A stretch of 64,000 nt of DNA from Bolinopsis microptera (lineage: Eukaryota > Ctenophora > Tentaculata > Lobata > Bolinopsidae), in assembly GCF_026151205.1 (NCBI RefSeq), contig NC_087082.1, positions 13,923,365 through 13,987,364 of the forward strand, written 5' to 3'. This document shows, piece after piece, positions 37,201 through 40,200 of the stretch. The position numbers were made by a program, and so were the translations under genes. Each line of letters starts with the position of its first letter. Position 1 is the stretch's first letter. Under the pieces are notes generated by a model, which saw nothing but the letters and a program-made list of their open reading frames with translations, had not been told where the DNA came from and did not search any database.

Positions 37201-40200
37201 GATAGTTTCAGAAGGTGTCCTATAATTTATTTGTATTAGGTTCGCAATGTTAAGGGAGTTAACAAAAATAAATATCTGTTGAAAGAAAGCACGGATTTTA
37301 CTGTACTTACTTCCGTTTTCATCCTTAGCAAATCTTTTTCTGCCTCCTCCTCTTCCTCCTCCGCCTCTTCCTCCCCTGCCCCCTTTTTTTCCGTCTTTTC
37401 CACTGCTCTTTTTTTCCTCTGCTTCATCTTTTCCCGAATTCGACCTGAAAAAGTTCACTTTGAACAACACAAAACTAAAGTTTGCACTTAGTATTGCAAT
37501 TAGCAAATCATAATTCGAAAGTGATAGTAATAAATACTGTCAAAGAACTTACTCTACTTTTTCAGATTTACCACCACGACCCCCACCCCGGCCACCACCA
37601 CCTCCTCGGCCACCACCACCTCCTCGGCCACCACCGCCTCCACGTGTTTTTTTAGCTTTCGTATCCTCCGAAATCTTCCCTTGCTGCACCAGCAACTCCA
37701 GGCCTGAAAGGTAAATCAGCTTAAAACCGAAAGAGTTGCTCTGCGAAAGACCACGTCATGGCTTTAATTATAAGTATAACTTTATAACTCATAGGTTGTT
37801 CAATATTCAGTGCAACAATAAAAAATGCATGCACATAAGCAAACACTGGGCATAAAACTATAGGCAAGGAAAGAGCAGATAGTCAAATAGACTGCGCTAC
37901 GGCCAGGTAGCGCAGTTGGTTAGAACGCCAGCTTTGCAATTGTGAGGTTGCGGGTTCAAATCCCACTGTCTGCCTGGTCGTGGGGTGAGCGTCGTTGACG
38001 TTCAGCTAAGGATCATGAGTGGTCTATGCAGCACCCCGGTCTACTCAGCCGAATACTCGACAAATCGGGTGTGAGGGTTAAATGAGGAGCTGCACATTGC
38101 AGCAAAGTCTCGGGCGAAGAAAGTATGGTACACACTACCTTAACTGTCACTGGCTAAAAACAAATCCTTCGGCTTCCTGTAATTGGCTGGTTGCACTTGT
38201 GTAACGATGTGGCTGTTGGAATACTCCGGAGTAAAATAAGTGTCTTGATAAAAAAGAATGAGCTAACGGACCGGATATAAGGAGCATCAAAGTAAATGTA
38301 CTAACGTTTCTCCTTGGAGGTAGTAGAGACCCAGATATCAGTGCAACCCTCTAACAGTACCATCGGGACCCCGATTTTATCTAATGGGGTATCGTGCTCA
38401 TTGAGAGGAATCTCTTTACGGCCCTTCTTTCCCATTAAGACCCCCACTTTCACTCCTTGCTCGTTTTTACCAATCTCTATCTTCCTAGCTGGGATAAGAA
38501 TTGTGGTTAACATTGAATTGAACTCTATCTGTTTTGAAGATCTATGTCATATTTGTACAATGGAATTGGAATAAACAAAACGAATTTTTAATGGAGGTTT
38601 GGAATCTGAAAATTTGTCAATGCGTTATCACCGTCTGACTGCTGGCTCCAAGTCCCATCTTCATTCAGCATTAGTGGAACTCCCTTCTTATCAATAGGTG
38701 TCCCGGCCTCGTTTGTCTGCAAATCCGTTCCATTGGAGGCCTCTGCAAGCTTTCTGCCGTTGTAAGGATCAACACTGTACGTGATCGTCACGTTAGTAAG
38801 AGGACCTGTTGGCTTCTTCTCAGAACTATCATCCCCGCCTGATTTTCCGCCTCTTCCACCCCCACGCCCACCTCGTCCACCACCTCCCCCTCGTCCTCCT
38901 CCTCCTCTCCCTCCACGACCTCCGGATGTTTCCGTGTTCTCAGAACTTTCATCTGTTTTCCCTTCTCCTATCAGAAACAGTATTATAGTAAGTGAATCAC
39001 CGAATACCTATTCATGATGAAGCAGCAAATGACCTCTTTAAAGTTAAAGCGATCCACATAAATTCGATCCGTTACAATTCTTTTCAGGGAGGAGATAAAA
39101 TAACTGCCAAAAACGTCACTTACCCATTCTCTGAGCTCTTCTCCCCACTTTTACAGTCGTGCTATTAGTGCCGAACGCGTTCTCAAACTTGTACCCCTTC
39201 TCCTCTAACGTGATGGGTTTACCTTGAGCCTCTATCTCCCCATCAGTCATAATCACCACATGGTCCGCCAGCTTGGCATAACCTGAGGGAATAGTTACCT
39301 TATATGGTAATGTTGCTTGTATTGTAGCAACATGTCCTTATAAGGTAGTGTCAACATCACAAAATTACCTCTTAGGTAATCGATAATACATGGTTTAATA
39401 CCGGAAGAGAGTTATAGAATCATAGGGAGCTCCGGAAACAAACGGATTATCCTCCTCACTGTTTTAATTTCATTCAAGGGGTTAGGTTCTACGTTCGGTT
39501 AGACTTAGAGTCAAGGAAATTTTCGGTTTAACTTAAAGGAGTAATTGAGACGTATTTAGACAAGAGTGAACAATGCACTGGTCTGGATAATAGTTCACAT
39601 ATGTTTTGCCAGAAAACGAACTTTCATTGAAAGAAAAAAAACATTCGCACTCAAACCCCTGGCCCTACAAACCTTGAGATGAGGTGACCATAACGACAGT
39701 TCTGCCGGTTCCAAGCAACAGATTCTTAATAGCTCCATTAAACGCCTTCTTAGCGACCGAGTTATCCAGAGCCGAAAATGGGTCGTCTAACAAGACCGTC
39801 TGAGTTTTGGAGTACACGACACGTGCAAGGGAGGTTCTCTGTTTCTGGCCTCCCGAAAGTGTTGTACCTGAAACAAACCTTTTAGTTTAAGTTGTCAAAT
39901 TATTGAAATTCTTCTTCCGGATCATATGTTTGTGCAAAGTTCTTCAATAAGTTTGACCAACAACTGATTTAAATTCTAATTACCGATGTTCAATCTAGCT
40001 TGTAACCTTAACCAATTTTTTGAGAATTCACTATATATATGAAAGTTAAAAGCCTACCTTTGGGTCCTAACTCAGACATATCCCCCGCTGGGAACATATC
40101 AATATCTTCTATTAGTTGACAAGCCTTGACAACCCTCGAATATCTGAACATTATGAGTTATGAGAAAAGCTTCACTAAGGTGCACTCGCAATTTGATTTT

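Follow-up and report, generated by a model that had tools for sequence, protein, structure and literature searches.

A predicted RGG-rich cassette with a duplicated module in the NBD1-TMD2 linker of a ctenophore ABCC transporter gene

The ABCC gene and its predicted linker cassette

The window that we analysed is a stretch of 64,000 nucleotides. By eye, a gene for an ABCC-type transporter occupies its minus strand between about 58.8 kb (5' end) and 29.8 kb. On this strand, the exons of NBD1 lie between 40842 and 39124, and those of NBD2 lie between 31079 and 29827. Both sets of NBD exons and a number of TM-like stretches (also recognized by eye) occur in order along the gene. Because some TMD exons were not located, and because the joined TMD pieces had no relevant match in Pfam, the full gene model is incomplete.

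When we used the joined pieces of each NBD as queries, the best model for both was TIGR00957, which describes the MRP family (2.5e-29 for NBD1 and 1.2e-62 for NBD2). These matches are far below the full-length cut-off of TIGR00957 (1470 bits) because the queries are only pieces of the protein. The CFTR model (TIGR01271) scored below TIGR00957 in both cases, ranking second for NBD1 and fourth for NBD2, so unlike CFTR itself, the comb jelly gene does not have NBDs that are closest to TIGR01271. As in the MRP family, NBD1, the linker, and NBD2 follow each other within one gene, and the exon that contains the end of the linker is weakly similar to MRP1 in PDB, at the corresponding place (E = 0.0031). 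The gene encodes a ctenophore ABCC (MRP-like) transporter with ABCC-type NBDs.

What sets this gene apart from the MRP family is an insert of 268 residues that is rich in RGG and that includes two modules without a recognized family. The initial annotation had placed four exons, with 268 residues and three Gly-Arg tracts, between NBD1 and TMD2, and we recovered the same coordinates, lengths, and phases. The four minus-strand exons (336 + 183 + 151 + 134 = 804 nt, or 268 codons) have no stop in the spliced frame. They lie between the exon that ends at 39124 and the exon that starts at 37099, which is the linker between NBD1 and TMD2 (Table 1).

Table 1. Features of the ABCC gene and of the linker cassette, in window coordinates
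Feature	Position	Strand	Remarks
NBD1 exon with signature LSGGQKQR and Walker B	39673..39867	-	best family for NBD1 is TIGR00957 (MRP)
ABCC exon with the end of NBD1 and the start of the linker	39124..39282	-	donor TGG/gtaagt, phase 1
Cassette exon 1 (336 nt): contains RGG tract 1 and copy A of the module	38632..38967	-	weak donor ACG/gtgata
Module copy A, 25-codon core	38651..38725	-	from local alignment to copy B
Cassette exon 2 (183 nt): contains copy B of the module but no RGG	38306..38488	-	weak donor AAC/gttagt
Module copy B, 25-codon core	38340..38414	-	from local alignment to copy A
Cassette exon 3 (151 nt): RGG tract 2	37553..37703	-	begins in phase 1 and ends in phase 2
Cassette exon 4 (134 nt): acidic/Lys stretch and RGG tract 3	37311..37444	-	begins in phase 2 and ends in phase 1
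ABCC exon 3' of the cassette: end of the linker and first TMD2 helix	36933..37099	-	weak match to MRP1 in PDB
NBD2 exons with Walker motifs	30149..31079	-	best family is TIGR00957

To score the splice sites, we scanned pairs of GT and AG sites around supplied exon cores, so the scan is not blind to the exons that had been called earlier. For the outer junctions of the cassette, the scan covered the neighbouring ABCC exons, and its scoring matrix was rough. For all five of the cassette introns, the previously called junctions ranked first among the phase-compatible pairs.

These junctions bear on an alternative in which the exons are part of another gene, separate or nested, or are spliced to exons elsewhere, and are always absent from the transporter. 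In favour of it, RNA-binding proteins are where RGG tracts are typically found. On the other hand, the cassette exons are on the same strand as the transporter, in a continuous frame, and with compatible phases on both sides; there is no ATG upstream of the RGG tract in the frame of exon 1; and exon 4 ends in a good donor site (GAA/gtaagt). We consider a separate gene to be very improbable.

Several other elements lie in the window. A recent interspersed repeat with a tRNA-like start (GGCCAGGTAGCGCAGTTGGTT...) lies in the intron that separates cassette exons 2 and 3 (37898-38110, plus strand). We scored 40 places from among 908 candidates for this repeat, and the 39 others are 94-98% identical to it. 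It is presumably a tRNA-derived SINE; neither ARAGORN nor Rfam called a tRNA in the window. An intron within TMD2 contains two overlapping open reading frames in different frames (33883-35042, plus strand), which resemble a Tc1/mariner transposase. A long open reading frame that resembles a seven-helix receptor (57473-58450, plus strand) lies opposite to the ABCC gene in orientation and near its 5' end. There are also long tandem arrays at 59438-61149 and 13245-14105 that are open in several frames. Elsewhere in the genome, one open reading frame for a glutamate receptor (L007) has a ligand-binding part whose best match in PDB is ML032222a, a receptor from the ctenophore Mnemiopsis (5.4e-34), and another receptor frame (L005) is best matched by chains of Glutamate receptor 2.

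Coding potential and a duplicated module

To score codon usage, we compared 8 long open reading frames from the same genome (18,855 nt) to intron sequence from the ABCC gene. In the called frame, which has no stops, exon 2 scored +0.155, and the body of exon 1, leaving aside its RGG tract, scored +0.252. By contrast, all three minus-strand frames of each of the five cassette introns had negative scores. This is good evidence that exons 1 and 2 are coding. The scores leave the frame of exons 3 and 4 unsettled, because another frame scores higher for exon 3 (0.287, with one stop, versus +0.145 in the called frame) or about as high for exon 4 (0.284, with no stop, versus +0.337). That exons 3 and 4 are coding is suggested by the open frame and the splice sites, which is weaker evidence than for exons 1 and 2. 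Overall, the cassette would be expected to be part of the mature protein.

Exon 2 and the body of exon 1 share the motif NExxTP(I/L)DKxGVP(L/M)xLxE, which was not described in the initial annotation of the cassette. The local alignment of the two has a score of 59, which was not reached by any of 5,000 shuffles (the best shuffle scored 51). Across the 25 ungapped codons of the two copies, the first, second, and third codon positions are identical at 17, 18, and 6 sites, a contrast that is somewhat inflated because this stretch was chosen for its protein similarity. At the protein level, 12 of the 25 residues are identical, and 8 of these 12 are encoded by different codons. Since agreement at third positions is close to random although the protein sequence has been retained, the pattern is as expected for an old internal duplication that has been maintained by purifying selection on the protein.

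We used AlphaFold2 to model each copy of the module, with just two sequences as input. Both models are beta-rich, with a similar order of strands and moderate confidence. For exon 2, the best model has a pLDDT of 77.9 and a pTM of 0.54 (the five models range from 69.5 to 77.9 in pLDDT), and for exon 1, the best model has a pLDDT of 74.8 and a pTM of 0.52 (range 59.8 to 74.8). Going by these predictions, each module is probably a small, beta-rich, folded unit. The insert thus consists not only of RGG tracts but also, in exons 1 and 2, of this duplicated module, for which a fold is predicted.

Searches for relatives of the modules were negative. Foldseek found no convincing fold in PDB for either model (best E = 0.72 and 0.61), phmmer with exon 2 against the PDB sequences found no match at E = 10, and no Pfam family matched the modules above its cut-off. 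We set aside several candidates: FoP_duplication from Pfam for the whole cassette (17.8 bits, cut-off 24.6); 5-FTHF cyclo-ligase from Pfam for exon 2 (14.9 bits, cut-off 27); a possible third module copy where the cassette borders TMD2 (score 28, reached by 768 of 5,000 shuffles); and matches of the whole linker to PDB sequences (27 at E up to 1), in which the best stretches are mostly in Gly-rich parts, with designed proteins and ribosomal uS5 at the top.

Within the same genome, exon 1 and exons 3-4 each matched only themselves at E = 0.001, and the two exons that flank the linker matched only themselves at E = 10. Exon 2 matched one other place, at 20925-21104 of the window (minus strand, E = 3.1), which is probably by chance. 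At E = 10, a search with the module from exon 1 did not recover exon 2, so this kind of protein search cannot show that the module is absent from elsewhere in the genome.

RGG tracts and the linkers of related genes

Stretches of Gly-Arg or RGG are known mainly from RNA-binding proteins. The three Gly-Arg tracts of the cassette contain 14 RGG motifs, and nearly all of the arginines in the tracts are within RGG. A study of GAR domains gives the definition of tri-RGG as RGG-X(0-4)-RGG-X(0-4)-RGG, describes long GAR domains as rare in the human proteome, and names proteins, many of them nucleolar, RNA-related, or chromatin-related, such as fibrillarin, nucleolin, GAR1, the FET proteins, and hnRNPs (PMC9957100). 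The cassette has four non-overlapping matches to this pattern, and each of the three tracts contains it, as in GAR proteins. Unlike those proteins, the cassette is in a membrane transporter and has few aromatic residues (1 F, 2 Y, and 2 W in 267 residues). A Pfam search of the cassette did not detect an RNA-binding domain. We also searched the literature for ABC transporters with RGG tracts or methylated arginines; going by titles and the opening lines of abstracts, none of the papers listed describes an ABC transporter with an RGG tract, and a search for literature on ctenophore ABC transporters found nothing relevant.

At the DNA level, the tracts differ. Within them, arginine is always encoded by CGN in exon 3 and always by AGR in exon 4, and exon 1 uses both sets of codons. 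Part of exon 3 is, by eye, a near-perfect tandem repeat of 18 nt. We also asked how often DNA for a CGN-coded RGGRGG (CGNGGNGGNCGNGGNGGN) occurs in the 264.65 Mb genome. It is found at 72 places (counting overlapping matches), as compared to 325 for the reversed control; as the control does not contain CpG, this indicates that such DNA is not common, rather than that it is depleted.

To see if related genes have similar linkers, we searched the genome with NBD1 and found 25 places, two of which are exons of the same ABCC gene. We examined nine loci, which cover 10 of the other 23 matches. By eye, five places are ABCC-like: contigs C6 and C12 have two each, and the fifth is on C5 (48% identical). 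The loci on C5 and C6 include the whole linker, while the two on C12 may not reach TMD2. RGG-x(0-4)-RGG is absent from every frame of the nine loci, including the five ABCC-like paralogs (two of which are perhaps only partly covered). Loci L008 to L012 appear to be ABCB-like by eye, from their signature, so we did not count them as ABCC paralogs.

The linker of the C5 paralog differs in composition, so linkers vary within this genome. We considered whether an intron in this linker was the ancestral site of the cassette, but it is in phase 0, not phase 1, and thus gives no shared intron from which the cassette site could be derived.

Three of these loci have other features. L002 (287-9652; G000:C6:6273286-6282651, plus strand) contains two adjoining ABCC-like genes with long intronless open frames: one is a single frame of 1581 amino acids, and the other consists of two overlapping frames, with 823 and 451 amino acids. 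L003 and L004, which are about 0.5 Mb apart on C12, contain closely similar pieces of ABCC-like genes, and L003 also has a long tandem array that is open in several frames.

The main rival to a functional insert is neutral growth: the linker would tolerate changes in length, the Gly-Arg tracts would be harmless expansions of GGN repeats, and the insert would be made but have no specific role. The window does hold several long runs of G/C as well as tandem arrays, neutral expansion would also give the 18-nt repeat in exon 3, and the C5 paralog shows that the composition of linkers varies in this genome. However, each of the three tracts, which lie in separate exons, is in the glycine frame, and the sets of arginine codons differ among them; CGN-coded RGGRGG is uncommon in the genome, with just those 72 places; and the module has diverged at third positions far more than at first and second positions, which bears on the modules and not directly on the tracts. 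On balance, neutral growth seems rather unlikely.

Possible exon skipping, the CFTR parallel, and putative roles

Removing all four cassette exons preserves the reading frame, as had been claimed, and exons 1 and 2 can each be skipped on their own. More precisely, 8 of the 16 subsets of the cassette exons are in frame: exons 1 and 2 may each be in or out, exons 3 and 4 must be kept or removed together, and the other 8 subsets shift the frame. The initial annotation considered the insert to be possibly isoform-specific. The arithmetic holds, but equal flanking phases are weak evidence for skipping because many introns of the gene are in phase 1 (8 of the 13 that were scored, and 4 of the 8 that are outside the cassette).

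The one hint of skipping comes from the donor sites. Among the 13 introns scored, the weakest donors are those of exon 1 (gtgata, 0.8) and exon 2 (gttagt, -0.6), so some transcripts may lack these exons. The lowest scores for the other 11 introns are 1.0 and then 1.3, and the highest is 5.0. The donors of exons 3 and 4 (2.6 and 3.9) have scores like those found elsewhere in the gene.

The R domain of CFTR is a long, charged insert with several dibasic sites for PKA (RRxS/T). Like the R domain of CFTR (ABCC7), the cassette is a long, charged insert between NBD1 and TMD2, so the parallel that had been drawn holds for the position. It does not extend to dibasic PKA sites: the cassette has no RRxS/T and just two relaxed [RK][RK]x[ST] sites (KKPT and KKSS). 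The cassette also differs from the R domain in having RGG tracts and predicted folded modules.

A regulated alternative cassette, similar to the R domain, would yield isoforms with and without the insert that differ in gating or activity, perhaps with a switch by phosphorylation or methylation. This idea is consistent with the shared position within an ABCC protein, with the intact frame after removal, and with the weak donors in exons 1 and 2. The scarcity of PKA-like sites, the commonness of phase 1 introns in the gene, and the ordinary donors of exons 3 and 4 argue against it, and we regard it as improbable.

Instead, we suggest that the cassette is a coding insert in the linker that acts as a basic cytosolic tether or a regulatory arm, which we view as about evenly balanced between right and wrong; our confidence in any particular mechanism is low. 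Going by the topology of ABCC proteins, the insert would be on the cytosolic side. It would provide two beta-rich modules as well as three RGG tracts that are flexible and positively charged. The tracts may bind a negatively charged partner, such as RNA, an acidic lipid, or the acidic surface of a protein, and we would guess that the modules are docking sites for a partner or for the NBDs. The putative contact of the tracts could be adjusted by methylation of their arginines.

A more specific proposal is that the RGG arm binds RNA or readers of methyl-arginine and thereby sets the activity or placement of the pump, which would link it to RNA granules or to signalling by arginine methylation, with a device that ctenophores would have built by placing RGG tracts and a new, duplicated beta-module at the position of the R region of CFTR. 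We think that this is quite improbable.

If the insert is in the mature protein, then it would be an unusual example of tri-RGG tracts, which are typical of RNA-binding proteins, within the regulatory linker of an ABC transporter, alongside a duplicated module that has no recognized fold. It would also imply that the linker between NBD1 and TMD2, which is best known from the R region of CFTR, has been used on more than one occasion for regulatory inserts.

In keeping with a possible methylation of the tracts, the same genome has five matches to the C-terminal domain of PRMT (PRMT_C), counted exon by exon. Two of these, at G000:C6:19055463 and G000:C6:19151100, have equal scores, lie in frames of 524 amino acids, and are about 96 kb apart; they are perhaps a recent duplication.
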